A stretch of 35,933 nucleotides of DNA from Alphaproteobacteria bacterium (lineage in GTDB: Bacteria; Pseudomonadota; Alphaproteobacteria; Sphingomonadales; SMXR01), in contig DAOWAS010000006.1 of the NCBI GenBank assembly GCA_030634465.1, forward strand, positions 1 to 35,933, read 5' to 3'. Of the stretch, positions 4,968 to 35,507 are shown piece after piece. Position numbers and translations under genes: made by a program. Within the stretch, counting starts at the first letter, position 1. The number at the start of each line of letters is the position of its first letter. A model generated the notes under the pieces. The model ran no database searches, was not told the DNA's origin, and was given only the letters and a program-made list of their open reading frames with translations.

Positions 4968-5014
4968 CCCCTTGCTCTGAGTTAACGCTAGGTATTCCAA
5001 TTTAAATTGATAAG

Positions 5015-6379: not shown

Positions 6380-6515
6380 GGGGCTTTCTCCAACTTATAT
6401 TTTTGCAGTTGGCACCATATGCGGGATTTATTCGCTAGTATTTGCGTTCAATCAAATGATGGGGTAGTAGACAAAAAATATGTACAGTTGGTTGATGTAT
6501 TTTATTGGTTTAGGG

Positions 6516-6529
6516 TTGATTGAAATCAA
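6516..6529 (+). promoter_or_regulatory. Perfect FNR/CRP-family box upstream of nosR
   Basis: The sequence TTGATTGAAATCAA matches the FNR consensus TTGAT-N4-ATCAA in all ten positions. Its centre (6522.5) is about 66 bp before the nosR GTG. A TATATT -10-like element lies at 6551-6556, overlapping a second copy at 6556-6561. That spacing fits a class II promoter with the box centred near -41.5 and transcription from about 6564. FNR-, Anr- and NnrR/DNR-type regulators all bind such sites, so the sequence alone does not say whether the signal is oxygen or NO. It may also influence the divergent tnaA gene. Confidence 0.8.
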
Positions 6530-6588
6530 TTATTAATGCTTGCCTGAGAGTATATTATATTGGTCGATAAACGCGGGGGTAATAGTTA

Positions 6589-8745: not shown

Positions 8746-8780
8746 TACCTAGTAGCAAACAAGGCCAAGTACATGGCTGG

Positions 8781-8786
8781 TATAAT
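8781..8786 (+). promoter_or_regulatory. Possible internal promoter (-10) before nosZ
   Basis: TATAAT preceded by TGG is a good extended -10 in the 71-bp nosR-nosZ gap, about 31 bp before the nosZ ATG. No convincing -35 is present, so it may be fortuitous. A separate nosZ promoter is known in some denitrifiers. Confidence 0.25.
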
Positions 8787-8816
8787 TAGTTTCACAATAA
8801 CTTTAGGAGAGTTAAT

Positions 8817-10721: not shown

Positions 10722-10737
10722 CAAGAAGAGAGAAGAC

Positions 10738-12962: not shown

Positions 12963-13792
12963 TCAGAAGTTTAACCCTAGCCGCTATGGAAATTCGCATG
13001 GGCTTGCGCAACAGATGGGTGTTGGCAACAACGTTGTTAATGGCAACATTGTCTTTTGCTCTGGCAGCACTTGGCAGTGCGCCAACGGGTGTTATTGATG
13101 TTGATCTTTTGCTTATAACTGTGGTTTCGCTGTCTAGCCTGTCGGTGTTTTTTGTGCCGCTTATTGCTTTATTGTTATCTCACGATTCAATAGCAGGCGA
13201 GGTCGAGCAAGGCACCATGCTTTTACTGGTGTCCTATCCCATTTCTCGGAGTGAAGTGGTAATTGGCAAATTTATAGGCCAGTTTTTAATTATTACTCTG
13301 GCTATTATTGTGGGGCTGTCACTGGCGGCAGTGGTGGTTTTGTTTAAAACAGATGGCGGCATTATTTTTGAAAGCTGGCTGGCACTGTTAAACCTTGGCG
13401 GTGCTACTATTGCCCTTGGGGCGTGTTTTGTGGCCTTGGGCTTGTGGGCAAGTTCAATGGTAAAACAACGCGCGGCGGCGGCAGGAATAGCCATAAGCCT
13501 TTGGCTTTTCTTTGCGGTTTTGTTTGACTTGGGGTTGTTGAGTATTTTGGTGTCAGATGTTGGTAGCTTTATCTCAGCTGAGGTGTTTAATGGGCTTCTG
13601 CTTTTGAACCCAACCGACATATTCAGAATAATAAACGAAACAGGTGCAGGTGGCACAAGCTTGGTGTCGGGCATGGCGGGCTTGTCAGCAAAAACTGGCT
13701 TGTCACACACCGTATTGTGGGCAGCACTGGGATTATGGATAGTAATTCCATTGGTGTTGGCTGTTAGAAACTTTAAGCGAAAAGATTTGTAA
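12959..13792 (+). CDS. nosY: ABC transporter permease NosY
   Basis: NosY is the membrane subunit of the NosFY transporter. The 277-residue protein is strongly hydrophobic, with about six predicted membrane segments. It carries the typical ABC-2 cytoplasmic loop EVEQGTMLLLVSYPISRSEVVIGK after the second helix. It is coupled to nosF by an ATGA overlap and to nosL by a one-base TAATG overlap. Confidence 0.93.
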   Translation: MIRSLTLAAMEIRMGLRNRWVLATTLLMATLSFALAALGSAPTGVIDVDLLLITVVSLSSLSVFFVPLIALLLSHDSIAGEVEQGTMLLLVSYPISRSEVVIGKFIGQFLIITLAIIVGLSLAAVVVLFKTDGGIIFESWLALLNLGGATIALGACFVALGLWASSMVKQRAAAAGIAISLWLFFAVLFDLGLLSILVSDVGSFISAEVFNGLLLLNPTDIFRIINETGAGGTSLVSGMAGLSAKTGLSHTVLWAALGLWIVIPLVLAVRNFKRKDL

Positions 13793-14313
13793 TGAATATA
13801 TTAAATAAAATTGCGGTTATTTGTTTGGTCGGCTTTTTGGCTTCTTGCGGGGAAGCGGAAAATACCGTTGCACCGCCACCCCATAACTTGGCTGATGATG
13901 ATGTCAGCTATTTCACAAGCATGGTAATTGTGGAACACAACGGCCCCAAAGGGCATGTTATTGTTGAGGGTGAAGACAAACCTCTGTGGTTTTCTTCTGT
14001 GCGCGACACTCTTGCTTTTACTAGGTTGCCTGAAGAAACCAGAAAAATTTTAGCCATTTATTTAACTGACATGTCAAAAGCTGATACTTGGGATAACCCC
14101 GATAACAGCACATGGGCTGAGGCTGAAAACCTGTTTTATGTTGTGGGCAGTAGTAAAATGGGTGGCATGGGGCAGGCTGAAATGGTGCCGTTTTCAATTG
14201 TTTCTGACGCAGAAACCTTTTCACAAGAATTTGGTGGTACGGTTGTAACCTTGGACGAAATAGCAACAGATCTAATTTTATCGCCACCTGATACCAACCA
14301 ACACTCGCACTAA
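13792..14313 (+). CDS. nosL: Copper-binding lipoprotein NosL
   Basis: NosL is an outer-membrane-type lipoprotein that delivers Cu(I) for NosZ maturation. The 173-residue protein has a lipobox LASC with the lipidated Cys19. Conserved NosL segments include FTSMVIVEHNGPKGHVIVEG and the Met-rich SSKMGGMGQAEMVPF, whose methionines may help bind copper. It is the sixth gene of the operon and lies 12 bp before nosX. Confidence 0.9.
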   Translation: MNILNKIAVICLVGFLASCGEAENTVAPPPHNLADDDVSYFTSMVIVEHNGPKGHVIVEGEDKPLWFSSVRDTLAFTRLPEETRKILAIYLTDMSKADTWDNPDNSTWAEAENLFYVVGSSKMGGMGQAEMVPFSIVSDAETFSQEFGGTVVTLDEIATDLILSPPDTNQHSH

Positions 14314-14325
14314 GAAAGCATTGAA

Positions 14326-15324
14326 ATGACTAAACCTTCTGTAAATGTTGAACGCCGCCGTGTAATACAGTTTTGTGCCATTGCCGCGGGGCTGACCATG
14401 GCGGGCATGCCAGTTGCAAGTTTGGCAAAAAATAATGAAAACATATGGCGCTGGCGCGGCATTGCCTTGGGTGCTGAGGCTGAAATATTGCTGGTACATA
14501 ACGATGAAGCAGAAGCAAAACGTATTTTGGATATGGCTGTGTTGGAGCTAAAACGTTTAGAGGGCTTGTTCAGTCTTTACGACCCGCAATCAGAACTGTC
14601 AGTTTTAAATAAAACAGGGCGGTTAGATAATCCCTCGCTGGATATGGTTGAACTGCTTTCACTATCTAACGCCATATCAAAGCTAACATTTGGTGCTTTT
14701 GACATTACGGTTCAGCCATTGTGGCTGGCACATGCCAACCATTTTGCCAGTTCGCAAAAAGACGATGTCGAACAGCTTAACCATGCCATTGAGGGCGCAC
14801 GCAAACATGTTGATTATAGCGCTGTGAACGTGTCCAGAAACGAAATTAGCTTTGCCAAAAATGACATGGCGATCACACTGAACGGTATTGCCCAAGGGTT
14901 TATTACTGAACGCATTAGCGCATTGTTCTCAGGTGCGGGCATGCACAATATTTTAACTAACATGGGCGAGATAAAGGCACTGGGTCGCAAGCCAAATAAC
15001 CAGCCGTGGCAAGTTGGCATTGAGGGTTATGATGGTATGAAAATTGAGCTTAACGATCGTGCCATTGCCACATCAAAACCCGCAGGCACTATATTTGATG
15101 CTGAGGGTCGCTATCACCACTTGTTTAGCCCTAAAAGCGGTCATTCCCAAAACAGTTTTGCTCAGGTTTCGGTTGTGGCACCAAACGCCGCCCTTGCCGA
15201 TGGTTTGTCCACAGGGCTTGCGGTGTTAGAGCCAGAACTATTAACGCCTGTGTTAGAAAACATTAAAGAACTGGGCGTTGATATTTATGCAAAGCGCAAT
15301 GATGGCACATTTATTCAGGCTTAA
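14326..15324 (+). CDS. nosX: FAD:protein FMN transferase of the nos operon (NosX/ApbE)
   Basis: ApbE-family enzymes use FAD to attach FMN covalently to a threonine in a (S/T)GA(S/T)xT motif. In this operon the obvious target is NosR Thr170. The 332-residue protein starts with a twin-arginine-like leader (RRRVIQFCAIAAGL, cleaved near SLAK), so it should act in the periplasm. Family blocks include FGAFDITVQPLW, LNGIAQGFITERI, NMGEIKALGRKP and SPKSGH followed by ADGLSTGLAV. It is the last gene of the nos operon, and the convergent universal stress gene begins only 16 bp beyond it. Confidence 0.92.
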   Translation: MTKPSVNVERRRVIQFCAIAAGLTMAGMPVASLAKNNENIWRWRGIALGAEAEILLVHNDEAEAKRILDMAVLELKRLEGLFSLYDPQSELSVLNKTGRLDNPSLDMVELLSLSNAISKLTFGAFDITVQPLWLAHANHFASSQKDDVEQLNHAIEGARKHVDYSAVNVSRNEISFAKNDMAITLNGIAQGFITERISALFSGAGMHNILTNMGEIKALGRKPNNQPWQVGIEGYDGMKIELNDRAIATSKPAGTIFDAEGRYHHLFSPKSGHSQNSFAQVSVVAPNAALADGLSTGLAVLEPELLTPVLENIKELGVDIYAKRNDGTFIQA

Positions 15325-15766: not shown

Positions 15767-17362
15767 CTAGTGGTTTTTGCTAGTGGCTATAGTTTTTTTC
15801 AACTGCTTGATAATTTTAACACGTTGTTTGTCACTTGCGGCATCCTCTAAGTTTTTACGAATATCCAGTGTTAGTTGGGCAAGCTCATTATGCCAGTCTG
15901 GTTTGTTGAGCACGTTTGCATCAAGCCTGTGTTCGGTGCCGCGTTGTTTGGTGGTTTTACCTGAAATACGTAAATTAAACTCGTCATCTAAAGCGGGAAT
16001 TATTATTTTGTCAGGGGCAAAACCTTTTTCTATTAAAGCTTTTTGCAATGCACTTAGGGCCTCGCCCGAACCATGGGTTAGGAAAATGCTTTGTTTTATG
16101 GGTTGGCGTTCGCTTATCCAGTCCACCAAGCCATCGCTATCAGCATGGCCTGAATAAATATCTAGCGTGCGTATGTGCGCCCGCACTTGTATGGCCTCGC
16201 CCTGAATTTTAACACTTTTAACACCCGCCTCTAAAAGACTGCCCAAAGTGCCTTCGGCCTGATAACCAACTAAAAGAATGGTAGATTTTGGCCGCCATAA
16301 ATGGTTTTTCAGGTGGTGACGAATACGGCCCGCATCGCACATGCCGCTAGCCGCCATAATAATTACCCCACTGGTAAAGCGGGCAATAGACTTGCTTTCA
16401 TCAACAGTTTCGGTGAAATGAAAACGAGGGTGGTCGAAGGGATTTTCTATGTTTTCTTCCAAACTAAGGCTTGAGGCAAAGTCGGAAAAAACAGATGTTA
16501 TTTTAATGGCAAGGGGACTGTCTAAAAATACGGCGGTGCAGGGAATGGTTTTTTGGCGCAAAAGATAAGCAATATCCAACAACAGCTCTTGCGACCGCTC
16601 TACGGCAAATGATGGAATAACCAGATCACCGCCCGCTTTCATGGCGCTGTTAATTTCATGGGCTAATATCTCTCTTCGTTTTGCTACAGTGACATCATCG
16701 CGCACCCGCCCGCCATAAGTTGCCTCGCAAAACACATAATCAAAGTCGCTTGGGGCATCAGGGTCTTTGTGCATAAGCTTGTTTTCAGGGCCTAAATCGC
16801 CAGAAAACAACAGGCGCATATGTTTTGTTCCGTCCGCAATTTCTATCTCTATAGAGGATGAGCCCAATATATGCCCTGCATTCCAAAAGCGCGCTCGCAC
16901 GCCCTTGTTTGGGTCTAGCCATTTGTCATAGTTAACAGGTCTTATCTGATCTATGGACATTTCGGCATCTTTGCGGGTGTAAATTGGTTGCACAATTGGT
17001 CGCCCACGCTGTTGGTTGCGTTGGTTTAAGCGTCTAACTTCCATTTCCTGAATATAGCCACTGTCGGGCAACATATAATGCACCAGCGAACGTGTTGCCG
17101 GTGTGGTGTAGATGGAGCCTGTAAAACCAGCTTTTATAAGCTTAGGAACCAAGGCGGTATGGTCAGTGTGGGCATGGGTTAAAAGCACAAAGTCAATTTT
17201 GGCAGGGTCAAATGGAAAGGGTCTGTAATTTAATTCCTTAACTGTTTTTGCCCCTTGGAAAAGGCCGCAGTCTACCAGAAACTGACAATCGTCGGTTTGT
17301 ACCCAGTAACATGACCCTGTAACCGTACCCGCGGCACCGCAAAATTTTACTTTTACACCCAT
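15767..17362 (-). CDS. Metallo-beta-lactamase/beta-CASP RNA-processing exonuclease-like protein
   Basis: The 531-residue protein has the MBL zinc motif LLTHAHTDH near residues 60-68, the FSGDLG and ATYGGR blocks, and a beta-CASP region with PSFAVERSQELL and AASGMCDAGRIRHHL. The C-terminal RMMBL segment reads SGHADSDGLVDWI then FLTHGSGEALSALQ. About 75 extra charged residues follow. This is the CPSF73/YSH1-like branch, usually RNA endo/exonucleases. The ATG overlaps the stop of the upstream PRPP-synthetase gene by one base, with GGGGAG as ribosome site. Its place in a nucleotide-phosphorylase operon suggests RNA turnover feeding mononucleotides into salvage, which is inference. Confidence 0.88.
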   Translation of the reverse strand: MGVKVKFCGAAGTVTGSCYWVQTDDCQFLVDCGLFQGAKTVKELNYRPFPFDPAKIDFVLLTHAHTDHTALVPKLIKAGFTGSIYTTPATRSLVHYMLPDSGYIQEMEVRRLNQRNQQRGRPIVQPIYTRKDAEMSIDQIRPVNYDKWLDPNKGVRARFWNAGHILGSSSIEIEIADGTKHMRLLFSGDLGPENKLMHKDPDAPSDFDYVFCEATYGGRVRDDVTVAKRREILAHEINSAMKAGGDLVIPSFAVERSQELLLDIAYLLRQKTIPCTAVFLDSPLAIKITSVFSDFASSLSLEENIENPFDHPRFHFTETVDESKSIARFTSGVIIMAASGMCDAGRIRHHLKNHLWRPKSTILLVGYQAEGTLGSLLEAGVKSVKIQGEAIQVRAHIRTLDIYSGHADSDGLVDWISERQPIKQSIFLTHGSGEALSALQKALIEKGFAPDKIIIPALDDEFNLRISGKTTKQRGTEHRLDANVLNKPDWHNELAQLTLDIRKNLEDAASDKQRVKIIKQLKKTIATSKNH

Positions 17363-18252
17363 TATACAAGCTCCCCTTGAATGGCCTTTGCCAGCAATGG
17401 CGCAAGGTATATGTCGTTTGTGCTGTGGGTAACACTATCTGTTGAGCGCACGCCTGACACGCCAGATTTATGTATCAGTTCCAAATCTTCTTGTGAACAT
17501 AAAGCATGGGTGGCGATAACGTCTATTGTGGCGGCCCCTGCTAATTTTAAAGCCTCAGCACAGTGTGTAATTGTTGTGCCGCTTGATATTACATCATCAA
17601 CAATAACGGCGTGTGAATTTCTTAACCGTGGGTCGTCTGGCAGTTCAAATGCAATATCCCTATCACCGCGACGTATTTTTTTACCAATAATAAAAGGCAT
17701 GCCTGTTTTTTCAGCAATGGCGCTTACCCATTGTTCGGCCTCACCATCAGGCCCCACCAGAATAGTGTTATCTTTGTCTGGCAATGCATTTAAACTTTCG
17801 GCAATAGGGTCAGTTGCCAGCAGGCTTTGAGTTTGGCAATTAGGGAAAACTTCTTGCAGGTTATCAATACGGTGCAGGTGCGGGTCGACGGTTATAACCT
17901 TGTCAAAATTGGTGGCTAAAAGCTTACCAACAACACGTTGACTAACGGCCTCGCCATCTTGAAATGCTTTGTCCTGCCGCATGTAACATAAATATGGTGC
18001 CAGCAAAATAACCCTGCTTGCGCCATTATTTCGCAGGGCAGATGCGGCAAAAGCCAGTTGAATTAGTTTTTCATTGGGCTTGTTTAACCTGGCATAGACA
18101 ATCGCAGTTCCTGTCACGGGGGTGACCCGCACTTTATTTTCACCATCAGGAAAAGTGTGAATGTTTATATTGTGGGCGGCAATAGCTAGCTCTTCCGCCA
18201 ACCGTTTTGCGGCATCAGAGTTTTCAACCAAATAGTGAAGGGACGTGTTCAT
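17362..18252 (-). CDS. Ribose-phosphate pyrophosphokinase (PRPP synthetase) homologue
   Basis: The 296-residue protein is of the PRPP synthetase family, which makes PRPP from ribose 5-phosphate and ATP. Seen motifs are FPDGENKVRV, APYLCYMRQDKAF, VDPHLHR, and the PRPP-binding loop VIVDDVISSGTT. It is slightly shorter than the housekeeping enzyme (~310-320). It is overlapped at both ends by its neighbours, so it is probably a paralogue tied to the phosphorylase pathway rather than the main Prs. Whether it makes PRPP or handles ribose 1,5-bisphosphate cannot be read from the sequence. Confidence 0.85.
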   Translation of the reverse strand: MNTSLHYLVENSDAAKRLAEELAIAAHNINIHTFPDGENKVRVTPVTGTAIVYARLNKPNEKLIQLAFAASALRNNGASRVILLAPYLCYMRQDKAFQDGEAVSQRVVGKLLATNFDKVITVDPHLHRIDNLQEVFPNCQTQSLLATDPIAESLNALPDKDNTILVGPDGEAEQWVSAIAEKTGMPFIIGKKIRRGDRDIAFELPDDPRLRNSHAVIVDDVISSGTTITHCAEALKLAGAATIDVIATHALCSQEDLELIHKSGVSGVRSTDSVTHSTNDIYLAPLLAKAIQGELV

Positions 18253-19739
18253 GCATCTCTCCTGATTGTGTAGCCATCTCCTTCATTGGCAAATTTGGTA
18301 GTGAAGGCAAAGTCGGTTTCAAAACAGGCATGAATGCGGTAGATAGCGTCTCCTTTGGTTACGGCATCGCCAATTTTTTTGAAAAGATCAATGCCCGCAC
18401 CCTTATCCATTGGCGCGCCAGCAAGGCGGGCAATACGGGCAAGGCGATAACAATCAATTCCACTTATAACGCCATCTTCTTTTGCCAGAATGTCGTGGGT
18501 TAACTCACCCGCACACATTGCTTCGTTTTTACCCTGAGCCTCAATAATTTTTTCCATTGTTTGCAATGCTTCGCCTGAGTTCAGCAACTGTTCAGCTTTG
18601 GCATAACCCGAGCCACCTTTTAGGGCGGGGTCAGCTTCCAGCAACGCGCCGGCAATTTGCAGTGACTTTTCTCTTAGGTCGGTTGGGGCGTTATCTTCAT
18701 TACGCAAAACTGCCATAACATCTCTGGCCTCTAATACGGGGCCAATGCCATTGCCAATGGGTTGGGCGCCGTCTGTTACAACCACATCTACATGCAGGCC
18801 AATTTCAGTGGCAATATATTCAAACAGTTTTCGTAACCGCATGGCATCATGCTGGGTGTGAATTTTAGCCGAGGGGCCAATGGGTATATCAATTAACAAG
18901 TGGGTTGAGCCTGCGGCTAGTTTTTTAGACATGATAGAAGCCACCATTTGCTCTCGTGTATCAATGCCAAGCGGGCGTTCAACCGATATTAGAATGTCAT
19001 CAGCAGGGGACAGGTTAACATGACCGCCCCAGGCAATGCAGCCATTACAGCTTTCAACAACAGCGCGCATTTCTTGCATAGACAGGTCAACATTTGCCAA
19101 TACTTCCATGGTATCAGCAGTGCCTGCGGGCGAAGTAATGGCGCGCGATGATGTTTTGGGAATGGTCAAGCCATGTGCTGCAATAATTGGTACCACTATC
19201 ATTGAGGTGCGGTTGCCAGGAATGCCACCAATGCAGTGTTTGTCAACAACCACAGGGGCGTTCCAATATAGTTTGTTTCCTGCTTGTGCCATGGTAGTTG
19301 TAAGCGATAAAACCTCGCTTGATGTCATAAACCCAGCGCAAGAAACCAGAAAAGCCGCTATTTCCATTTCAGAATATCTGTGACTGGCAATGTCGCCAAC
19401 AATCATTTCTATTTGCTTATGGTTAAGGGTATGCCCGTGAATTTTTCGTCTTAAGTGTTCCAAGCTTTGGGGCAGTTCGGCGGGGGCAATGGTTACGGGC
19501 GAGTTTTCATCCAGACCCATTCGTTCAAAAGCCTGTTTTGATAGCCCAAGTTCATCGGGGCCAACAATGTCTTTGTTGTCGACAATTAATAATGTGGCAA
19601 GCATGCGTTTTTTGCCGCTAATAACTTCAATTTTTTTGAGAGCTTGATACTCCTCAGGGCGGTACAAGCTACAGTCTCGCGCCATAAACGCCACAGAGTT
19701 TCTGTAGGTATCAATGCCTATATTCTTTAGCTTCAGCAT
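18249..19739 (-). CDS. AMP phosphorylase / thymidine phosphorylase family protein
   Basis: The 496-residue protein belongs to the long, archaeal-like branch of the pyrimidine phosphorylase family. It has an extra N-terminal domain of about 85 residues before the glycosyl-transferase fold. Characteristic blocks are VVVDKHCIGGIPGNRTSMIV, SSRAITSPAGTADTMEVL, GGHVNLSPADDILI and GSTHLLIDIPIGPSAKI. Archaeal members phosphorolyse AMP to adenine and ribose 1,5-bisphosphate; bacterial relatives are usually annotated only as thymidine phosphorylase. The frame is open to a GTG at 19754. The ATG at 19739 with AAAGGGG six bases upstream is the better start. It leads the operon, is divergent from the P-type ATPase gene, and ends in a four-base overlap with the next gene. 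Confidence 0.85.
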   Translation of the reverse strand: MLKLKNIGIDTYRNSVAFMARDCSLYRPEEYQALKKIEVISGKKRMLATLLIVDNKDIVGPDELGLSKQAFERMGLDENSPVTIAPAELPQSLEHLRRKIHGHTLNHKQIEMIVGDIASHRYSEMEIAAFLVSCAGFMTSSEVLSLTTTMAQAGNKLYWNAPVVVDKHCIGGIPGNRTSMIVVPIIAAHGLTIPKTSSRAITSPAGTADTMEVLANVDLSMQEMRAVVESCNGCIAWGGHVNLSPADDILISVERPLGIDTREQMVASIMSKKLAAGSTHLLIDIPIGPSAKIHTQHDAMRLRKLFEYIATEIGLHVDVVVTDGAQPIGNGIGPVLEARDVMAVLRNEDNAPTDLREKSLQIAGALLEADPALKGGSGYAKAEQLLNSGEALQTMEKIIEAQGKNEAMCAGELTHDILAKEDGVISGIDCYRLARIARLAGAPMDKGAGIDLFKKIGDAVTKGDAIYRIHACFETDFAFTTKFANEGDGYTIRRDA

Positions 19740-19799
19740 TTTAACCCCTTTCACCTGAACTATATGCGTTTAGTATAAAGGAAAGAATAAGCCCCATCT

Positions 19800-26166: not shown

Positions 26167-27066
26167 CTAGGTTGCAATAAACATCCACACACAGGTTAGG
26201 ATAAAAAGGGCTAATGGATAATAACTAGCCCTATCAAACAGCCGTGCGGCGGCGGTACCATTATTGGTGCGCCATAAATATATGGCAGGGCGTAATAATA
26301 AAAAGTAACCAACTATAAGGCTGGCTATTGCCCACGGTATGCTAGGCATAGCAGGTGAAATTATGGATAAAGATGCACTAACCAGCAATGTCGCAATTAT
26401 GCTTAGTAATATAACGATGGCAGATATTTTAGAGCCAAAGCGTGCCGGAATTGTTTTGGCGCCAATGCGTTTATCCTCATCAACATCATTCCAGTCGGCG
26501 GGTATGTTTTGACCACCAACTTCCCACAAGAAAACCCATGTAAAAACTAACAATAAATAATCAATACGCGGTGTTGCGTCTACGGCATAAATAGCGGCAA
26601 TTGGCCCGCAAGCCTTCACCACCCCGCTAAGTAAAATTCGCAGGTGTGTAACCTTTAACAGTTTGCAATATATGGCTTCAAACACCCCGCCAACCAGCAG
26701 GATTAAAACGATAATAGGGTTTAGTAAATATGCCCCGATAAAAGCGATGGATAGCCAAAAAACTATCCATGCCATTGCTGCTTTTTTGCTCAATAACCCC
26801 TGAACCAGTGGGTGGTGGTCGGGCGATGCCTCAACCGAATAGCCAGACTGCACCAAACCGCCATCGTGTTTTTCTTTATCGGCCTGATAACCCAACAAAT
26901 CGTTCAGGGCATAAATGGCGGTATAGCCAGCAAAACCTGTTGTTAGTGCGAGTACGGTAAAACCAAGTGAGGGAAAATGCCCTAACCAAAGCAGGGCGAT
27001 AAATGCAGGTGTAGCAAGGTCAATAATACCGTGTTGGGTGCGGGAAAGGGCGAAAAAACTATTCAT
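26167..27066 (-). CDS. UbiA-family membrane prenyltransferase
   Basis: The 299-residue protein has about nine hydrophobic segments. UbiA enzymes move a polyprenyl group from its diphosphate onto an acceptor, using two Asp-rich motifs and Mg2+. Here the first motif reads NDLLGYQAD, where the usual NDxxDxxxD has Asp at the fifth position; Gly replaces it. The second motif, DWNDVDEDKRIGAKT, is intact. The DGGLVQSGYSVEAS segment after the first motif is also unlike standard UbiA or MenA. The acceptor is not likely to be the usual 4-hydroxybenzoate; the gene context points to a cyclitol. It is the last gene of the five-gene operon, 21 bp after the methyltransferase, with AAAGGA before the ATG. Confidence 0.82.
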   Translation of the reverse strand: MNSFFALSRTQHGIIDLATPAFIALLWLGHFPSLGFTVLALTTGFAGYTAIYALNDLLGYQADKEKHDGGLVQSGYSVEASPDHHPLVQGLLSKKAAMAWIVFWLSIAFIGAYLLNPIIVLILLVGGVFEAIYCKLLKVTHLRILLSGVVKACGPIAAIYAVDATPRIDYLLLVFTWVFLWEVGGQNIPADWNDVDEDKRIGAKTIPARFGSKISAIVILLSIIATLLVSASLSIISPAMPSIPWAIASLIVGYFLLLRPAIYLWRTNNGTAAARLFDRASYYPLALFILTCVWMFIAT

Positions 27067-27087
27067 AAACAGTCCTTTAGGAACAAA

Positions 27088-27789
27088 TTAGCGTTTGTAA
27101 TAGGTCATGTAGTTTACATCAGCACCAGCGCGCATTTTAAAGGTTTTGCTGAACGGGTTGTACATAAATGATGCGACATCACCTAACTGAAAACCATTGC
27201 CACTGGTCCATTGCTCAATTTCTTCTGGTTTGATTAGCTTGCTGTATTCATGGGTGCCGCGTGGTAAAATGCGCAATACATATTCCGCACCAATAATAGC
27301 AAATAAAAGTGCCTTTAAATTGCGGTTTATGGTGGAAAAGAACAAGCAACCATCGGGTTTTAATAATGTGACGCAGTTATCTATAATTTGTTTGGGGTCG
27401 GGCACATGCTCTAATGCCTCAAGACAAGCAACAATATCGTAAGTACCAGCACGTTCATTAGCTAAACTTTCAACATTTTGTAAAAGATATTCTACAGAAA
27501 GACCTTGTTTTTCCGCATGTTGCCTAGCAATTTTTATGGGCATAGGGGCAAGGTCAATACCTGTTGCCACGGCACCCTCCCTTGCCAAAGCTTCGGTTAA
27601 AATGCCGCCGCCGCAACCAACATCAAGTATTTTTTTACCCTTTAAGCTGGTGTTTTTTTTCATGAAATTAACTCTAAGCGGATTAATAACATGAAGCATG
27701 GCCATAGGGCCTTCTTTGTCCCACCACATTTGAGCAAGACGGTCGAACTTTTCTATTTCGCTACTATCTACATTGGCTGTGTTGTTCAT
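27088..27789 (-). CDS. UbiG-like O-methyltransferase
   Basis: The 233-residue protein closely follows UbiG, the SAM-dependent O-methyltransferase of ubiquinone synthesis. It starts EIEKFDRLAQMWWDKEGPM, then has the SAM motif ILDVGCGGGILTEALAREGA. EALEHVPDP, FFSTINRN and PRGTHEYSKLIKPEEIE follow, and it ends ADVNYMTYYKR. It could be the housekeeping UbiG. However, it overlaps the cyclase gene by 26 bases and is followed by a prenyltransferase gene in the same operon. A paralogue that methylates the operon's own product is therefore at least as likely. Confidence 0.85.
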   Translation of the reverse strand: MNNTANVDSSEIEKFDRLAQMWWDKEGPMAMLHVINPLRVNFMKKNTSLKGKKILDVGCGGGILTEALAREGAVATGIDLAPMPIKIARQHAEKQGLSVEYLLQNVESLANERAGTYDIVACLEALEHVPDPKQIIDNCVTLLKPDGCLFFSTINRNLKALLFAIIGAEYVLRILPRGTHEYSKLIKPEEIEQWTSGNGFQLGDVASFMYNPFSKTFKMRAGADVNYMTYYKR

Positions 27790-28957
27790 GGCTTTTTCTT
27801 TCTTTTAAACCAGTGCTTTCTTGCAACCATTTTTGAAAAAATGTCACCGCACTAGTAATGTCGTTAATGGTAATGTCCTCAACGAAAGAGCAAGCGCCAA
27901 TGCTGGTTGGAACAGGAAAGCATTGCACACCATTGCGGTGGTGTTGCCGCTCTAATAACGACTGCATAAGCAGGTCTGCTTCCAAGCCGTGTGATGACAA
28001 CGGTAGCCCCAAATTTAAGGTCAGGGAAAATATGCGATCAAGGTCGGTTTTGCTAAGTATGGATTTTTCAAATGAAATAATTGAGGATAATAAGATATCA
28101 ATTACCACGGCCTCACCGTGTAGTAAGTTAAGCTCTGTTTGCATTTCTAACGCAGGCGAAAAGTTGTGACCAAAGTCCACAGCACGGGCAAGATCAGTTT
28201 CAAACAGGTTTGGCTCAAGCTCAGCTAACATGCTAGTTACGGACATGTTTAATATGTCTTCGCAGTGGCTGTTTTGAAACTGGTTATTAATACTGTCGCT
28301 ACCATGGCGCTCTAACATAAAAAACAGCTCAGGCTCTTTAACCACGGCTAGTTTTAAAATTTCACCAACACCATTTAAAATATCTCTGCGAGGCAGACTT
28401 GTGAAAAATGAGCGGTCTAGCAACACCTGTTCTGGCGGCGAAAAACAGCCTAAGCGGTTTTTATTACTATTGAAGTTTATACCTGTTTTTATGCCAATTG
28501 CGGCATCTACATAGCCCATTAAAGTGGTGGGCACATTTATGTGTGGCACCCCCCGCCGCCAGGTGGATGCAACAAAACCCACCAGATCGGTTGTTACCCC
28601 GCCGCCAATGGCAATAATGGGTTCGTTGCGACGATTAATTGGAAAGTTTTCCAACGCACTTAATACATCTAAATATTGCGGCATGGACTTGTTATCTTCG
28701 CCTGCCTCAAATGGGTGAATGTATGCGGTGATACCATTCTTTTTGAAATAGTTGGCAATGGTATCGCCATAAATATTTAGCACATTTGTATCCACCACCA
28801 CAAAGCGTCGTTTGCCACCAGTTTTATCGTTTGAAGCTAAAAGAGCTTTGTTTTCTGGATTAAGCAGGTCGTGGCAACATGAAATGTCGTAACTGACAGG
28901 GCGTTCAGTGCTTATTTTCCATGATTGTCGGGTGTGGGTCAAAACACTTGGCTCCAT
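27764..28957 (-). CDS. Sedoheptulose 7-phosphate cyclase-like protein (dehydroquinate synthase superfamily)
   Basis: The 397-residue protein belongs to the 3-dehydroquinate synthase superfamily but looks like the branch that cyclises sedoheptulose 7-phosphate (2-epi-5-epi-valiolone synthase and relatives). The NAD loop is IGGGVTTDLVGF (GGG at 118-120), and RRGVPHINVPTTLMGYVDA follows. KTGINFNSNKNRLGCFSPP at 157-175 is the valiolone-type signature in place of the dehydroquinate synthase sequence. Expected metal ligands are Glu199, His264 (DFGHNFSPALEM) and His280 (LLHGEAV), all present, so it should be active. Which C7 cyclitol it makes cannot be decided by eye. The start codon overlaps the end of luxS and no Shine-Dalgarno is obvious, suggesting translational coupling. 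Confidence 0.82.
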   Translation of the reverse strand: MEPSVLTHTRQSWKISTERPVSYDISCCHDLLNPENKALLASNDKTGGKRRFVVVDTNVLNIYGDTIANYFKKNGITAYIHPFEAGEDNKSMPQYLDVLSALENFPINRRNEPIIAIGGGVTTDLVGFVASTWRRGVPHINVPTTLMGYVDAAIGIKTGINFNSNKNRLGCFSPPEQVLLDRSFFTSLPRRDILNGVGEILKLAVVKEPELFFMLERHGSDSINNQFQNSHCEDILNMSVTSMLAELEPNLFETDLARAVDFGHNFSPALEMQTELNLLHGEAVVIDILLSSIISFEKSILSKTDLDRIFSLTLNLGLPLSSHGLEADLLMQSLLERQHHRNGVQCFPVPTSIGACSFVEDITINDITSAVTFFQKWLQESTGLKERKSHEQHSQCR

Positions 28958-29415
28958 TTATTTTGTGAAGCTATCAGGTCTTGTGCTAATTTTTTGGCAC
29001 CAGCTAGGTCATGGTGGTCAGCCTGACCGCAGTTGTCTGGCGTTGCATAAGCCACAGTGTCGGACGTTAGAATGTCATCTAAAATAGCCCTATAAACACG
29101 GCAAACTTCATCAAAGCGGCCTTCGTTTTGTAATATTAAATAAAAACCTGTTTGGCAGCCCATGGGCGCAACAGAGACAAAATTGTCGGATAAATATTTT
29201 CTAAAACCAGCTAGCAGTAAATGCTCAAACGAATGTAGGACACCTGTTGATAAATAGGTTTTATTTGGTTGGGTGGCACGCAGGTCAAAAACATATGTAA
29301 CATCGCCCGCGCTCCCTTTTAGGTAGGACGACATGCGCACATAAGGTGCAACAACTAACCTGTGGTCAATTTCGCCTAGGGTTTCAGGATCCCAACCTAA
29401 TGCTTTTACGTCCAT
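28939..29415 (-). CDS. luxS: S-ribosylhomocysteine lyase (LuxS)
   Basis: LuxS cleaves S-ribosylhomocysteine to homocysteine and DPD, the precursor of autoinducer 2. The 158-residue protein has the metal motif HSFEH (His61, Glu64, His65), the PMGCQTGFY block with the catalytic Cys87, and CGQADHHDL with the third metal ligand Cys129. FDLRATQPN supplies the conserved Arg46. The full active site is present. It lies 2 bp after the TIM-barrel gene and overlaps the cyclase gene by 19 bases. An operon with a SAM methyltransferase gives a simple reason for its presence (recycling of SAH-derived ribosylhomocysteine). A sugar-isomerase role on another substrate is possible. LuxS is uncommon in alphaproteobacteria. 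Confidence 0.92.
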   Translation of the reverse strand: MDVKALGWDPETLGEIDHRLVVAPYVRMSSYLKGSAGDVTYVFDLRATQPNKTYLSTGVLHSFEHLLLAGFRKYLSDNFVSVAPMGCQTGFYLILQNEGRFDEVCRVYRAILDDILTSDTVAYATPDNCGQADHHDLAGAKKLAQDLIASQNKWSQVF

Positions 29416-29417
29416 GA

Positions 29418-30677
29418 TTAATTACCTTGTCTTTGTGGCAGGCAATTAGACAGGTGCGTGTAACTGTCGCTAACAGCCTGTTGCCATGAGTTGATATGGT
29501 GATACAGCTCAACCGTGGCGTAGCCATCAAAGCCACCATCATCTAGTGCTTTGAAACAACTGGTGAAATCTATCTCACCATCGCCAGGAATTATATGGAA
29601 ATGCACCTTGCCAGTTAGGCTATTGGCAACCATTTTGTCCATAAATGGCAAACCTTGCTCGCGTCTGTCAGCCTGACGAAGGTAGTGAATAATTGGTTTG
29701 GCGCGGTCTAATACATAAAAACTCAAGCGTGGCACCGACAGGGCGTAGGTGAAAATTTCATCATCAAAACTGGACGAGTTTTGAGGCAGGTCGTCATATG
29801 CCACAAAAATAATTTCACTCGTACTGCCAAGTTTTTTGCTTATGGCTTTGATGTTTGCTCTGGTGCTTTCATCAACTGCTTGGTCATAAAAATAAGCAGC
29901 GCGGTTTTGCTCTAGCAATAAAAAGTCAGCAGTTTCAGGGAAATAAATTAGATAGTTGGCAAAGTTAAAGTCTAATTCTAGATTGTCAGACATCTCTAGA
30001 ATTTTTAAATTATAGCCCTCAGTTGTATCTGAAACATGCAAATATTTGGTCATGGGCGCGGCCTTGGCGATGGCGTTTATATAATCATCATCTGAGCAAT
30101 AGGCATGGCAAATATCAATATGCAGGCGAAACTTCTCTAACCCCACTTTGTTTATTAGCTCTAACCCTTGCTCCAGTGTTTCAATGTACATGCCCGGCTC
30201 AGGCTCAATGGTTAGGGTAATATCATCGTCGCCAATAAACTCGACACATTCTTGAATACTGCTTATTAGCAAAGCCTCAGGGTCGATGTGAGGGTTGTTT
30301 ACATGCTCATCCCTTATAAAACCGCTACCAAAGCTAACTATTTTAACTCCTAGTGTGCGCGCGATTGTTATTCCCTGTTTAATCAGTTTTATGCGTTGTT
30401 TTCGCCCAGCCAAGTCAACACACATAGCTGATGGGTCATGGGGGCGATCGGCCAGAAAAAACAGTGTGGGTGTTGAAATGCAAGAAGGTTTGATATTGCT
30501 GTTCTCAAAGCGTTGTTTAAGGGCGGTTAGGTCACTATCGCTCATTTCAAATGGGTTAAACTGGTCCATATGAAAGGCCAGTTCAATGCCAGAATAGCCA
30601 GCTTTTTCCACAGCATCAATTGCATCCATCAGGCTTAGGTTTATAAGCCCGTTGGTACTGTAACTTAATTGTATCAC
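29418..30677 (-). CDS. Xylose-isomerase-like TIM-barrel protein with a large insertion
   Basis: The 419-residue protein has the AP-endonuclease-2/xylose-isomerase-like barrel used by many sugar isomerases and epimerases. Probable metal ligands are Glu158 (TIEPEP), Asp188 (HIDICHAY), His214 (YLHVSDT) and Glu390 (YATVELY). The barrel is interrupted after His214 by about 138 residues (219-357) before it resumes with HFHIIPGDGEIDF. A normal family member is ~280 residues. The insertion reads as an alpha/beta segment (SEIIFVAYDDLPQ and LSFYVLDRAK), with no motif I recognise. The frame opens with a GTG at 30686. The second GTG at 30677 has GAGGTGAT at the right distance and is preferred. It is the first gene of the operon behind a perfect FNR box. 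Ebo/EDB clusters also contain a TIM-barrel protein, so a relative of EboE is a candidate identity. Confidence 0.75.
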   Translation of the reverse strand: MIQLSYSTNGLINLSLMDAIDAVEKAGYSGIELAFHMDQFNPFEMSDSDLTALKQRFENSNIKPSCISTPTLFFLADRPHDPSAMCVDLAGRKQRIKLIKQGITIARTLGVKIVSFGSGFIRDEHVNNPHIDPEALLISSIQECVEFIGDDDITLTIEPEPGMYIETLEQGLELINKVGLEKFRLHIDICHAYCSDDDYINAIAKAAPMTKYLHVSDTTEGYNLKILEMSDNLELDFNFANYLIYFPETADFLLLEQNRAAYFYDQAVDESTRANIKAISKKLGSTSEIIFVAYDDLPQNSSSFDDEIFTYALSVPRLSFYVLDRAKPIIHYLRQADRREQGLPFMDKMVANSLTGKVHFHIIPGDGEIDFTSCFKALDDGGFDGYATVELYHHINSWQQAVSDSYTHLSNCLPQRQGN

Positions 30678-30741
30678 CCGTATCACCTCGTTTTTATGCG
30701 CACAAGTGATGTTGTTTTAGTTATTCTGTTAGGTAGCTGCA

Positions 30742-30755
30742 TTGATTTTGATCAA
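30742..30755 (-). promoter_or_regulatory. Perfect FNR/CRP-family box upstream of the cyclase-LuxS-prenyltransferase operon
   Basis: TTGATTTTGATCAA matches the FNR consensus in all ten positions. Its centre lies about 71 bp before the TIM-barrel start on the minus strand. A class II promoter would start near 30707, giving a leader of about 30 bases. The -10 is weak (TAACTA near 30718-30723), as expected for an activator-dependent promoter. The box sits between the hypE stop and the operon, so it should act only on the downstream genes. Confidence 0.75.
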
Positions 30756-30814: not shown

Positions 30815-31867
30815 TTAGCAAATACGAGGCAGAATTTCACCCACAGGCATGTCGAGAATACGCGTGCCGCCAATGGGGGTTTCCAATATGACCATGCCAT
30901 CATTACCACTGGTGGCAGTGCCGATAACTGTGCCTATAACTACTGCTTGTTGGTTATGTTTCTGCATAATTTGAAGCGCTTTATTTTGGTCTTTCGCGGC
31001 GACGAAGGCAATGAAGCAACCTTCATTGGCAATGTGAAGGGGGTCTAATCCGAGAATTTCACAGGCACCGCGCACGGCTTCGTTAACTGGAATGGCAGTT
31101 TCGCTTATGTTAATTTGAAGCTGAGCCGCAGTTGCTATTTCATTCAACACCGCCGCTACGCCGCCACGTGTGGCATCGCGCAGGCAATGTGGCGCAATGC
31201 CAGCTTGTAACATATCTAGAACAGGTTCTGCCAAGGGCGCACAATCGCTTTTTACGGCACCACTTAACGACAGGCCTTCACGCCCTGCCATTACCGCTAT
31301 GCCGTGGCGACCAATGTCACCTGACAATATAACCACATCGCCTGCTTTAACCTTGTTTGGCGCAATGGTGTGTTTATGCTCCAACACACCTATACCAGTG
31401 GTGTTTATGTAAATGCCATCACCCTTGCCACGCTCTACCACCTTGGTGTCCCCTGTGACAATTGCCACACCTGCTACCTCTGCCGCATACCCCATGGCCT
31501 GCACCACCTGCCACAGGGTTTCCATGGCAAGACCTTCCTCTAAAATGAAAGAAGCCGATATATATTTTGCTCGCGCTCCACCCATGGCCAGATCATTAAC
31601 CGTGCCGTTTATGGCTAAACTTCCAATGTTGCCACCGGGGAAAAATAATGGGTTAACCACAAAACTATCGGTGGTCATGGCAATGTGTTCCTGCGGTATG
31701 TTCACAATCGCACAATCGTTGGGCTGAACATCCGTAAAAATGGCGCAAAACATTTTATCAATTAACTGCTGCATCATTCGGCCACCACTACCGTGAGCCA
31801 TGGTTACATATGGATAGTCAGACAAGGGTAGGGGGCAGGTCATATTTTCGGGGTTAATTTTGCTCAT
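30815..31867 (-). CDS. hypE: [NiFe]-hydrogenase maturation protein HypE
   Basis: HypE dehydrates the carbamoyl group on its C-terminal Cys to cyanide, which becomes a ligand of the hydrogenase iron. The 350-residue protein has the PurM-like fold ([28 protein letters not shown]) and ends in PRIC, the required terminal cysteine. [13 protein letters not shown] is the conserved ATP-binding segment. It overlaps hypD by four bases (ATGA). Confidence 0.95.
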
Positions 31868-32973
31868 GCGACCTCCGACTTTTTTATACCGCTAATTTTA
31901 TAACGATAGTATGCGGCACATGCCCCTTCGGTTGAAACCATAGGCGCGCCAAGGGGGTGGTCAGGGGTGCAATTTTTGCCAAACTGTGGGCAGTTTATGG
32001 GTTTTTTCAGGCCTTGAATAATCTCACCACTGATGCAATCGCTACATTCTTTATGCTCACACTCAGCCATGTCAAAACGTAGTTCAGCGTCAAAATTTGC
32101 GTAATTTTTATTAAGGCTCCAACCACTTTCAGGAATCTCACCTATGCCGCGCCATTGCCGTGGGGTTACCTGAAAAACTTGTGATGTTAATTCTTGTGCG
32201 TGAGCGTTGCCACGTTCGCTAACAACACGGGCATATGGGTTTTCCACTTTTGCCTGTTCGTTTTCAAGCTGTTTGATACACATATAAATGCCCTGCAAAA
32301 TATCTACAGGCTCAAACCCCGTTACCACAATTGGTGTTTTGTATTTAACAGCTATTGGTTCATACGCTTGTGTTCCCATAACCGCGCACACATGCCCAGC
32401 GGCAAGAAAACCCTGCACCTTGCTGTCAGGGTTGGAAAGTATAGTTTCCATAGCGGGTGGCACCAATACGTGTGAAACCAGAAGTGAAAAGTTTTCAAGA
32501 CCCATTTCACTTGCCATATGCACCGCCATGGCATTGGCAGGTGCCGTGGTTTCAAAACCAATGGCAAAAAACACAACTTCTTTGTCGGGGTTGTCTTTGG
32601 CTATTTGAACCGCATCAAGCGGTGAATAAACAATACGTACATCGCCCCCAGTGGCACGAACGCTCAACAGGTCTTTGTCCGAACCCGGCACCCGTAACAT
32701 ATCGCCGAATGAGCAGAAAATAACATTTGATAGTGCGGCGATATCAAGCGCTTTATCAATTTTTTCTATGGGGGTAACACAAACTGGACAACCCGGCCCA
32801 TGCACCAGTGTTATGGCGTCTGGCAACAGCTCTTGTATGCCATAACGTATAATTGCATGGGTTTGCCCGCCGCAAATTTCCATAATTGTCCATGGCTTGG
32901 TGGTAATATCGCTTATTGCCGCAATATATTTTTGGGCGGTTTCGGCATCACGGTATTCATCGAGGTATTTCAC
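31864..32973 (-). CDS. hypD: [NiFe]-hydrogenase maturation protein HypD
   Basis: HypD is the iron-sulphur scaffold on which the Fe(CN)2CO unit is built with HypC. The 369-residue protein has CGGQTHAI near the N-terminus, [10 protein letters not shown], and a 4Fe-4S-binding C-terminal region with [21 protein letters not shown] and PLGAPMVS. It is coupled to hypC and hypE by four-base overlaps. Confidence 0.95.
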
Positions 32974-33206
32974 GTTTTCACCTCCTCGATCTGCTCTAGA
33001 TATTCAAATGTCTTATTTGCTTCTTCTTCATTCAAAACCGATATCGCCACCCCAGCATGAACCAGAACATAATCACCTTTTTTTGCCTCGGGAACCAAAA
33101 GCAAACTGGCTTCACGGGTAATGGTGCCAAATTCCACCACGCTCATACGGGTTAAAGTGTCATCTCCGTTGATGGTGATAATTTTCCCCGGTATTGCCAG
33201 ACACAT
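32970..33206 (-). CDS. hypC: [NiFe]-hydrogenase maturation chaperone HypC
   Basis: HypC carries the iron-cyanide-CO unit to the large subunit and needs a Cys directly after the initiator Met. The frame opens at 33221. The ATG at 33206, with GGAGG eight bases upstream, gives the required MCLAIPGKI start and 78 residues, normal for the family. The central [20 protein letters not shown] is also typical. Confidence 0.95.
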
Positions 33207-33227
33207 TATTGGTTCCTCCAAAGCGTT

Positions 33228-35507
33228 TTATAGTTGCGCCATTATTTGCGCCATTACTTGCCCTGAGGCCAAGCCACCATCATTGGGCGGAATACGGTTA
33301 TGCCAAAAAACGTCAAACCCTGCGGCTTCCAGTTTTTCAACCGTGCGTTCAAGTAGAAGCTTGTTCTGGAAGCAGCCCCCTGTCAAGAGCACCTGTTTTT
33401 CTGTTTGCCCAATGGCAGCGGCAACTATTATGTCCGTAAGCGTATTGTGAAATTTACGGGCAATGTCGGCGGCTGAAACTTTATTCTCTTGGTCAGCTAC
33501 ATCTTGGTCAGCAAAAATCTGTGATAGCATTTTTTGCCAGTTAATAATGCCGTCCTGTATATCAAAATCATAGCTTTCTGTGCTGCCCGAAGTCATGGCG
33601 GCAAACTCAAGCGCCATGGCGGCTTCACCCTCAAAACTGTTTTCGGTCGCAACCCCAGTAATATAGGCTATGGCATCGAACAATCGCCCGACACTGCTGG
33701 TCATGGGGCAGTTTATGTTTTTATCCAATGCTTGTTTTAAAAGCTTTTCTTCGCTTGTTTCAAGGCCTGTATTTTTTAGCAAACCCGCTTCATATAAAAG
33801 CCCAAATGCGGCTCGGCTTGGGTTTTTTGCCGCGGAATCGCCGCCAGATAATGGAAATGGTCTGAAGTGAGAAATGCGTTCATAAACCTTTTCGTTAATT
33901 CGTAAAAACTCACCACCCCAAATGGTACCATCGTCGCCGTAACCAGCCCCATCCCAAACCACAGCCAGTGCTGGGGGCGTTATTTCATTATCCAACAAAC
34001 ACGCCAGTGCGTGGGCGTAATGGTGTTGCACTGGGGTTATGTTGCCACCATATTTTTTTGCCACATGTGTTTCTGCCATACGTGTGGATGCATAATTGGG
34101 GTGCTTGTCACAGGCAACCATGTCTGCTTCAACCCCATACAGTTGGCACAATGTATTGATAGCATTTTCATGGGCTGTTAGTGCTTGGGGGCTGTCCAGA
34201 TCGCCAATATGCGGGCTTAAAATTAACTTGTCAGCCACCGCAAGTGCGACAGTGTTTTTCAAATGCCCGCCCACGGCTAAAATAGTTCGGGATGTTTGCT
34301 GTTTTAGCATCAGGGGCAGGGGGGCATAGCCTCGTGCTCGGCGTAAGACCATTTCCTGACCCGCCATAAAGCGCACAATGCTATCCTCAGCACAGTTTTT
34401 TATGGGGCGGTTATGCACTAAAAACAGATCGGCAATGCCAGATAGGCGCTCAAGTGCGTCATGCTCATCGGTGCAAATAGGCTCATTAGCGCGGTTGCCA
34501 CTTGTGGCAATGATGGGTCTTTCCACCTCCTGCATTAATAAATGGTGTAACGGCGTTGAGGGCAACATAACGCCATAACATGGGTTTTCAGGTGCGACAT
34601 ATTGAGAGATTTTTGAAGATTGTTTCTTACCTAGCAAAACAATAGGTGCTTGCGGCGATTGTAGTGTTTTTTCTTCCGCCCCTGACATTACGCAATATTC
34701 TTTTGCCTGTTTCAGGTTTGCCACCATAAGGGCAAAGGGTTTGCGTGGGCGGTGCTTGCGTTGCCGCAATGTGTTTACCGCCGTATCATTGCCAGCATCT
34801 GCTATCAGGTGAAAGCCACCAAGACCTTTTAGGGCTAAAACCTTGCCTGCCTTAACAGCTTCGCTGGCTTGGGTTAGGGCATCGTCATGGCTAGCAATGA
34901 CATTTCCTGCCTTGTCCCACAATTCCAAGTGAGGGCCGCAGTTTGCACAGGCAATGGGCTGAGCATGGAAACGACGATCAAGCGGGTCTTTATATTCGCC
35001 ACTACAGCAGTTGCACATTTTAAATTCAGCCATTGTGGTTTGCGGGCGGTCATAAGGCAGGCCAATGACAATGGTAAAACGTGGCCCGCAATTGGTGCAG
35101 TTAATGAAAGCATAGCGGTAACGAAAGTTCGCAGGGTTGTTCATTTCCACAAGACAATCAGGGCAGGTGGCAAGGTCAGGAAGTATTGAGGCGGATATTT
35201 CTGCGTCTGTGTCACTATCAACAATTGTGAAAGAACTGTCATTTTTTAAGGCCAACTGTTCTGCTGCAAAACTAGTGATAACAGCATTTGGCGGGCTGTT
35301 TTTTTGCAACAGTTCGGCAAAGCGGCTAATGTTGGTGCTACTACCTTCAACCTCAATGATAACACCTGACGCATTGTTCTGCACCCAGCCGTTTAGGTCA
35401 TGTTCAATTGCCAGACGGTAGATGAAAGGGCGAAACCCCACCCCCTGCACAGCGCCGTCCACTGTGTATTTACGGCGTTCATGTTTTTTATGCTTCAACT
35501 TCGACAC
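33228..35507 (-). CDS. hypF: Carbamoyltransferase HypF
   Basis: HypF makes the carbamoyl group for the cyanide ligands from carbamoyl phosphate and ATP and transfers it to HypE. The 759-residue protein has its domains in the usual order. The acylphosphatase comes first (VQGVGFRPFIYRLA near 20-33), then zinc-finger motifs (CPDCLVEM, CTNCGPRF, CNCCSGEY, CANCGPH). A YrdC-like domain (ALKGLGGFHLI) and the Kae1-like carbamoyltransferase (HHYAHALACL, VLLTGGCFQNKLL) follow. The start is GTG at 35507 without a strong ribosome site and overlaps hypA by 20 bases, so it may be translationally coupled. Confidence 0.95.
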   Translation of the reverse strand: MSKLKHKKHERRKYTVDGAVQGVGFRPFIYRLAIEHDLNGWVQNNASGVIIEVEGSSTNISRFAELLQKNSPPNAVITSFAAEQLALKNDSSFTIVDSDTDAEISASILPDLATCPDCLVEMNNPANFRYRYAFINCTNCGPRFTIVIGLPYDRPQTTMAEFKMCNCCSGEYKDPLDRRFHAQPIACANCGPHLELWDKAGNVIASHDDALTQASEAVKAGKVLALKGLGGFHLIADAGNDTAVNTLRQRKHRPRKPFALMVANLKQAKEYCVMSGAEEKTLQSPQAPIVLLGKKQSSKISQYVAPENPCYGVMLPSTPLHHLLMQEVERPIIATSGNRANEPICTDEHDALERLSGIADLFLVHNRPIKNCAEDSIVRFMAGQEMVLRRARGYAPLPLMLKQQTSRTILAVGGHLKNTVALAVADKLILSPHIGDLDSPQALTAHENAINTLCQLYGVEADMVACDKHPNYASTRMAETHVAKKYGGNITPVQHHYAHALACLLDNEITPPALAVVWDGAGYGDDGTIWGGEFLRINEKVYERISHFRPFPLSGGDSAAKNPSRAAFGLLYEAGLLKNTGLETSEEKLLKQALDKNINCPMTSSVGRLFDAIAYITGVATENSFEGEAAMALEFAAMTSGSTESYDFDIQDGIINWQKMLSQIFADQDVADQENKVSAADIARKFHNTLTDIIVAAAIGQTEKQVLLTGGCFQNKLLLERTVEKLEAAGFDVFWHNRIPPNDGGLASGQVMAQIMAQL

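Follow-up and report, generated by a model that had tools for sequence, protein, structure and literature searches.

What does an operon make in which a LuxS-like protein is encoded together with a sugar-phosphate cyclase and two enzymes of ubiquinone-synthesis type? The question is raised by a 35,933-nucleotide stretch of an Alphaproteobacteria bacterium (Sphingomonadales; GenBank assembly GCA_030634465.1, contig DAOWAS010000006.1, positions 1 to 35,933), hereafter called the window. On its minus strand, genes for a xylose-isomerase-like TIM barrel, a LuxS-like protein, a predicted cyclase, a UbiG-type O-methyltransferase and a UbiA-superfamily prenyltransferase follow one another in this order, with junctions of +2, -19, -26 and +21 bp (Table 1). 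We propose, at about even confidence, that these genes encode a complete and undescribed pathway, induced at low oxygen, to a methoxylated benzoquinol of the membrane that resembles ubiquinol and is made without O2. The original prediction, made from the sequence alone, had described five packed genes with gaps or overlaps of -26 to +21 bp behind a perfect TTGAT-N4-ATCAA box, and the coordinates, the Pfam and NCBIfam matches and the box all agree with this description.

Table 1 Operon genes and regulatory box in the window (EEVS, 2-epi-5-epi-valiolone synthase)
Feature	Position	Strand	Basis
Xylose-isomerase-like TIM barrel, 422 aa	29418..30686	-	PF01261, E 4.6e-35; GTG start
LuxS-like protein, 158 aa	28939..29415	-	PF02664, E 4.5e-33
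Predicted sedoheptulose-7-phosphate cyclase, EEVS type, 397 aa	27764..28957	-	PF01761; best PDB match ValA 4p53; tree; residues
UbiG-type O-methyltransferase, 233 aa	27088..27789	-	Methyltransf_23/11; TIGR01983, 275.5 bits (cut-off 103)
UbiA-superfamily prenyltransferase, 299 aa	26167..27066	-	PF01040, E 1.7e-27
Perfect FNR-type palindrome TTGAT-N4-ATCAA	30742..30755	.	Exact match; between hypE and operon

Conservation of the five-gene unit

About 85,000 species genomes were scanned with the LuxS-like protein of the window, and the remaining four proteins were then used as tblastn queries. The five genes, which the original prediction had treated as one pathway, were found in the same order and on one strand at 16 loci including the window, i.e., in 15 others from Pseudomonadota and Chloroflexota, with identities ranging from about 45% to about 80%. 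The loci in Pseudomonadota are L119 (a relative from the same class as the window), L017, L018, L028, L032 and L035, and those in Chloroflexota are L020-L027, L029 and L031, where the contig of L023 ends inside the TIM-barrel gene. At L030, a contig end cuts the operon just after the cyclase start. None of the 66 ordinary luxS loci carries any of the other four genes nearby. This recurring arrangement is not due to chance, and the five genes are inherited as a unit. Clustering of the flanking open reading frames revealed no conserved sixth gene, including no transporter, regulator or tailoring gene, suggesting that the five-gene set is complete.

The same five open reading frames (RJP53741-RJP53745) are listed beside nirS of the Chloroflexi genome SURF MAG 42 in Table A1 of a 2022 study, in the identical order xylose-isomerase-like, LuxS, EEVS, UbiG and UbiA; in its accessible sections, that study lists them as nirS neighbours only and proposes no function for them (PMC8756737). 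It was the sole report in the literature searched that has LuxS, UbiG and a prenyltransferase together. The five-gene unit is conserved and undescribed.

The cyclase is predicted to be of the EEVS type

Among PDB entries, the cyclase matches the EEVS ValA (290.6 bits) better than DDGS (214) and 3-dehydroquinate synthase (DHQS; 125). An IQ-TREE phylogeny that included reference EEVS, DDGS, AroB and EboD proteins places all 18 cyclases from the operons in a single clade (100/100) inside the EEVS/DDGS group of sedoheptulose-7-phosphate cyclases (100/99), and both the EboD clade (100/98) and the DHQS clade (100/99) exclude them. At ValA positions 281 and 360, which we take to be diagnostic of type, the window cyclase has Asp and His as in EEVS, and neither the Ala/Thr of DDGS nor the Asn/Lys of DHQS. 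Judged by tree and residues, the enzyme is predicted to be a sedoheptulose-7-phosphate cyclase of the EEVS type, as the original prediction of a valiolone-type cyclase had it, and its identification as AroB is ruled out. Mycosporine and gadusol pathways, which combine DDGS or EEVS with a methyltransferase, likewise start with a sedoheptulose-7-phosphate cyclase and continue with methylation (PMC4426668), but they contain no prenyltransferase, and the residues of DDGS are unlike those of the window cyclase.

In the whole assembly G000, the operon cyclase was the only protein of the DHQ-synthase family found, and shikimate kinase (PF01202) was not found; aroK-aroB of G000 probably lie in an assembly gap.

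The LuxS-like protein and the TIM barrel

The operon LuxS-like proteins have the fold, the Fe/Zn ligands and the catalytic Cys and Glu in common with the S-ribosylhomocysteine lyase LuxS, but form one clade apart from canonical LuxS (100/100). All 84 LuxS sequences retain Arg39, His54, Glu57, His58, Cys84 and Cys126 (Bacillus subtilis numbering), whereas Asp78, present in 66/66 ordinary LuxS, is Ser in 18/18 operon proteins, and Arg65 is kept in 5 of 18 operon proteins versus 61 of 66 ordinary ones. Glu57, Arg65 and Asp78 have been reported to be important for substrate binding (PMC2656534), and the reaction of LuxS proceeds through carbonyl migration and then β-elimination, with no redox cofactor (PMC3907816). 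Of the 19 operon genomes, a single one has a match over the cut-off to MTAN (TIGR01704), the enzyme needed to supply S-ribosylhomocysteine, and the window genome (95.8% complete) gives no match. Seventeen of the 19, among them the window genome, have S-adenosylhomocysteine (SAH) hydrolase. With the catalytic residues kept, Asp78 replaced by Ser, and MTAN over its cut-off in one operon genome against SAH hydrolase in most, the catalytic machinery seems to be retained and the substrate changed, i.e., the LuxS-like clade has probably lost S-ribosylhomocysteine as its substrate. LuxS, which the original prediction had left unexplained, thereby finds a place as a separate clade.

The intact catalytic and zinc residues, together with an operon methyltransferase that yields SAH, could instead mean that LuxS is an ordinary S-ribosylhomocysteine lyase outside the ring pathway, recycling the by-product of UbiG or making autoinducer-2. 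The distribution of SAH hydrolase and MTAN and the uniform Asp78 replacement speak against this role, as do the fusion of LuxS to the TIM barrel described below and the presence of LuxS in Desulforadius at a locus without UbiG, which together make such a role very improbable.

In 17 orthologues of the TIM barrel, E161, D191, H217 and E393 are invariant, and we read them as the predicted metal ligands of the superfamily. The nearest structures to its AlphaFold2 model (pLDDT 88.6) are the isomerase Art22, 2-hydroxy-3-keto-glucal hydratase and ketose 3-epimerases, all of which move carbonyls or add or remove water; the protein is likely a metal-dependent isomerase/dehydratase. In the cultured bacterium Desulforadius tongensis (Bacillota; L019), the TIM barrel and the LuxS-like protein are fused in one frame of 592 codons adjoining the cyclase gene, suggesting that the TIM-barrel and LuxS steps are consecutive.

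UbiG, UbiA and a probably aromatic product

The operon UbiG is 48% identical to UbiG of Escherichia coli, compared with 42% for the canonical UbiG of the same genome (C129, 299.6 bits), and retains the UbiG-specific C-terminal region. In the tree, the operon UbiGs split from the canonical ones (100/99); two rows of the operon clade that bear the mark 'canonical?', L154 and L155, represent the operon copies. The Chloroflexota operon genomes have only the operon UbiG. The operon UbiA likewise forms its own clade (100/99), apart from the rows of UbiA, CtaB, MenA, MqnP and EboC, and its first motif reads NDxxGxxxD, whereas its second Asp motif is intact. The second UbiG and two further UbiA-family proteins in the window genome rule out that the operon pair are its only ubiquinone copies, an outcome that the original prediction had named as fatal to itself. 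The two other outcomes named there, a lack of co-occurrence elsewhere and a cyclase placed among the 3-dehydroquinate synthases, do not hold for this genome either. In three drafts of operon Pseudomonadota (G289, G290 and G304), only the operon UbiG was found at E 1e-25; it may also serve ordinary ubiquinone synthesis there, or the drafts may be incomplete.

Canonical UbiG methylates aromatic polyprenyl catechols. A near-canonical UbiG therefore favours a prenylated, aromatic catechol or quinol over a plain alicyclic cyclitol. On these grounds it is unlikely, at perhaps one chance in several, that the product is a prenylated, O-methylated, non-aromatic C7 cyclitol serving as membrane lipid or anchor, with UbiG acting on a vicinal diol; such a product would also leave the two extra isomerase/lyase-type enzymes without a clear job. 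It does have the support that EEVS products are usually cyclitols, that an isoprenoid-cyclitol was predicted for the Ebo cluster (PMC5133447) and that in the biosynthesis of BE-40644 in Actinoplanes, as cited there, an EEVS product is later farnesylated by a UbiA-family enzyme. BE-40644 is, however, a secondary metabolite of one actinobacterium, and the accessible sections of that source mention neither LuxS nor UbiG for it. Of the membrane-anchored, O-methylated prenyl cyclitol of the original prediction, what stands as the most economical reading is a prenylated, O-methylated lipid with a C7-derived ring, made without O2, and what gives way is the alicyclic ring. The earlier interpretation is thus partly supported, and the observation beneath it is confirmed.

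Anaerobic setting and quinone context

The perfect FNR box of Table 1 begins 69 bp 5' of the GTG start codon of the TIM-barrel gene, suggesting that the operon is under FNR control. In the window, nine FNR boxes with at most one mismatch were found versus 1.97 expected, a number reached in 0 of 100 shuffles, and only two boxes are perfect, this one and another at 6516-6529, just 5' of nosR. In L119, nrdD and nrdG for an anaerobic ribonucleotide reductase (4633-8840, from translations) lie directly upstream of the operon, with the FNR-like boxes TTGACCTAGGTCAA and TTGATTCAGATCGA before the TIM-barrel gene. A nosRZDFYLX-type cluster for N2O reduction occupies 6516-15324 of the window (from translations), with the nos genes at 6589-15324.

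The UbiV-type model NF011991, for which E. coli, the positive control, was the only control over the cut-off, was over the cut-off in 0/19 operon genomes and had no match in the window genome; UbiU and UbiT were not searched. A complex I subunit was found in 18 of 19 operon genomes. Two operon Chloroflexota have a confirmed MenA, and a third was assigned one by sequence likeness and tree, so what the operon makes would be a further quinone in these bacteria. A 2026 survey counts Chloroflexota among the phyla in which quinone pathways frequently escape identification, and suggests that further quinones are still to be discovered (PMC13386864). The classical and UbiTUV ubiquinone pathways also use UbiA- and UbiG-type enzymes (PMC6747719, PMC11707229, PMC13386864), and known ubiTUV loci are FNR-linked and expressed anaerobically (PMC11707229). 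Those pathways, however, start from chorismate or 4-hydroxybenzoate and hydroxylate the ring, and UbiV is over its cut-off in none of the operon genomes.

Proposed pathway to a ubiquinol-like product

In the proposed pathway, the EEVS-type cyclase would convert sedoheptulose 7-phosphate to a C7 cyclitol, probably 2-epi-5-epi-valiolone (EEV), which the TIM barrel and the LuxS-like enzyme would isomerise and dehydrate in series. EEV, or 5-hydroxymethyl-2,3,4,5-tetrahydroxycyclohexanone, carries oxygen on C1-C4, a hydroxyl and a CH2OH group on C5, and nothing on C6. Its C5 hydroxyl, which is β to the ketone, would be lost to give a valienone-type enone; the carbonyl would then be shifted toward C4 and the C7 hydroxyl eliminated to leave a methyl group, in the way that LuxS forms the methyl of 4,5-dihydroxy-2,3-pentanedione. 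The chemistry of LuxS, generally known as carbonyl migration and β-elimination with no redox cofactor, would thus be applied to a cyclitol instead of S-ribosylhomocysteine, and the two dehydrations would produce a ring of the tetrahydroxytoluene type. The UbiA enzyme would add a polyprenyl chain to the sole free ring carbon, UbiG would O-methylate one or both inner hydroxyls, and the resulting quinol would serve the respiration of N2O, nitrate or O2 at low levels.

By calculation, EEV minus two H2O is C7H8O4, the formula of 2,3,4,5-tetrahydroxytoluene, whose pattern of four neighbouring oxygenated carbons, a methyl beside them and one free position is the pattern of the ubiquinone ring (oxygen at 1-4, CH3 at 5, prenyl at 6). 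The conversion is redox-neutral, and the operon contains no oxidoreductase. Both methoxy groups of ubiquinone come from UbiG in the classical pathway, so that the five operon enzymes could, in principle, suffice to make ubiquinol. A full O2-independent route from sedoheptulose 7-phosphate through EEV and 2,3,4,5-tetrahydroxytoluene to ubiquinone itself or a demethyl form is a tentative extension of the proposal, and we consider it rather doubtful. If true, this ubiquinone route would need neither chorismate nor decarboxylation, C-methylation or any hydroxylase, and ubiquinone-like quinones would extend to Chloroflexota.

The broader proposal of a ubiquinol-like product would, if true, derive the ring of a respiratory quinone from a pentose-phosphate sugar and not from chorismate. 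Its oxygens would be there from the start, which would make both O2 and UbiU/UbiV dispensable. We know of no metabolic role of LuxS other than S-ribosylhomocysteine cleavage, and this would be the first. Among denitrifying Chloroflexota and Pseudomonadota, the operon would then also serve as a genetic marker for a high-potential quinone that has stayed hidden.

Several points weigh against this proposal. We infer the reactions after the cyclase, the aromatic product, the respiratory role and FNR control; an isomer, trihydroxybenzyl alcohol, has the same formula, C7H8O4. The first Asp motif of the operon UbiA has Gly in place of the middle Asp. In the window genome, canonical UbiG and UbiA are also present, so that the operon is not the sole source of ubiquinone. 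The absence of UbiV has no background rate to be set against, and most operon genomes are drafts. The FNR box is weakly or not conserved in relatives, being partly present in L119 and L030; of the FNR-controlled operon in the original prediction, the perfect box is confirmed, and the control, deduced from that box, finds little echo elsewhere. No quinone of the proposed kind has been reported for Chloroflexota, and no link between EEV and quinones was found, in the literature searched. At the Desulforadius locus, finally, UbiG and the operon UbiA are missing, leaving the ring-making genes only, and the single UbiA-family protein is MqnP-like, suggesting that the ring has another fate there and that the ring-making module (cyclase, TIM barrel and LuxS) is separable from the lipid module (UbiA and UbiG).

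That ring-making part in Desulforadius, the patchy distribution across phyla and the precedent of BE-40644 (PMC5133447) would fit a prenylated meroterpenoid, aromatic or C7, that acts outside respiration as antioxidant, signal or antibiotic. Such a role sits poorly with a set of five genes accompanied by no conserved transporter, regulator or tailoring gene, and with the anaerobic and denitrification setting, and we regard it as improbable.

Relation to the Ebo/EDB cluster

The Ebo/EDB cluster has the UbiA, sugar-phosphate cyclase and xylose-isomerase-like TIM-barrel superfamilies in common with the operon (PMC5133447, PMC6282210), which would suit an Ebo variant making a prenylated carrier that moves metabolites to the periplasm. 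Comparison with five reference clusters (L117, L130, L131, L132 and L134) leaves hardly any room for this. The operon cyclase is not in the EboD clade. Its UbiA lies outside the EboC rows, and the EboC model NF035940 (cut-off 250) is not among the families matched by the window UbiA. All five EboC proteins retain the first Asp-rich motif and have lost the second, the reverse of the operon UbiA; EboC may therefore be no ordinary prenyltransferase. The TIM barrel resembles EboE only remotely (hhalign probability 78.8%, 18% identity over 182 columns), which points to kinship at superfamily level only. EboA, EboB and EboF are absent from the operon, and LuxS and UbiG are added. Membership in Ebo is ruled out on the cyclase, UbiA and the missing genes; the likeness noted in the original prediction holds for the shared superfamilies and fails at the level of clades.

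In the Pseudomonas-type EDB/Ebo cluster L117 (9498-11387, minus strand), EboD is fused behind an N-terminal DedA-like membrane domain, which may bear on the transport role proposed for Ebo.

Neighbouring genes

No matches to phage protein families were found. The operon is immediately preceded, on its own strand, by the hydrogenase maturation genes hypE, hypD, hypC and hypF (window 30815-35507, from translations). At two distant loci, chorismate synthase-like genes adjoin the operon, possibly by chance (L021, 2272-4326, where a shikimate dehydrogenase-like gene also adjoins, and L032, 112-1425). At 15767-19754 of the window, genes for metallo-β-lactamase nuclease-like, phosphoribosyl pyrophosphate synthetase-like and AMP/thymidine phosphorylase-like proteins are packed together and followed by a P-type ATPase gene, in what looks like a low-oxygen nucleotide-salvage island.

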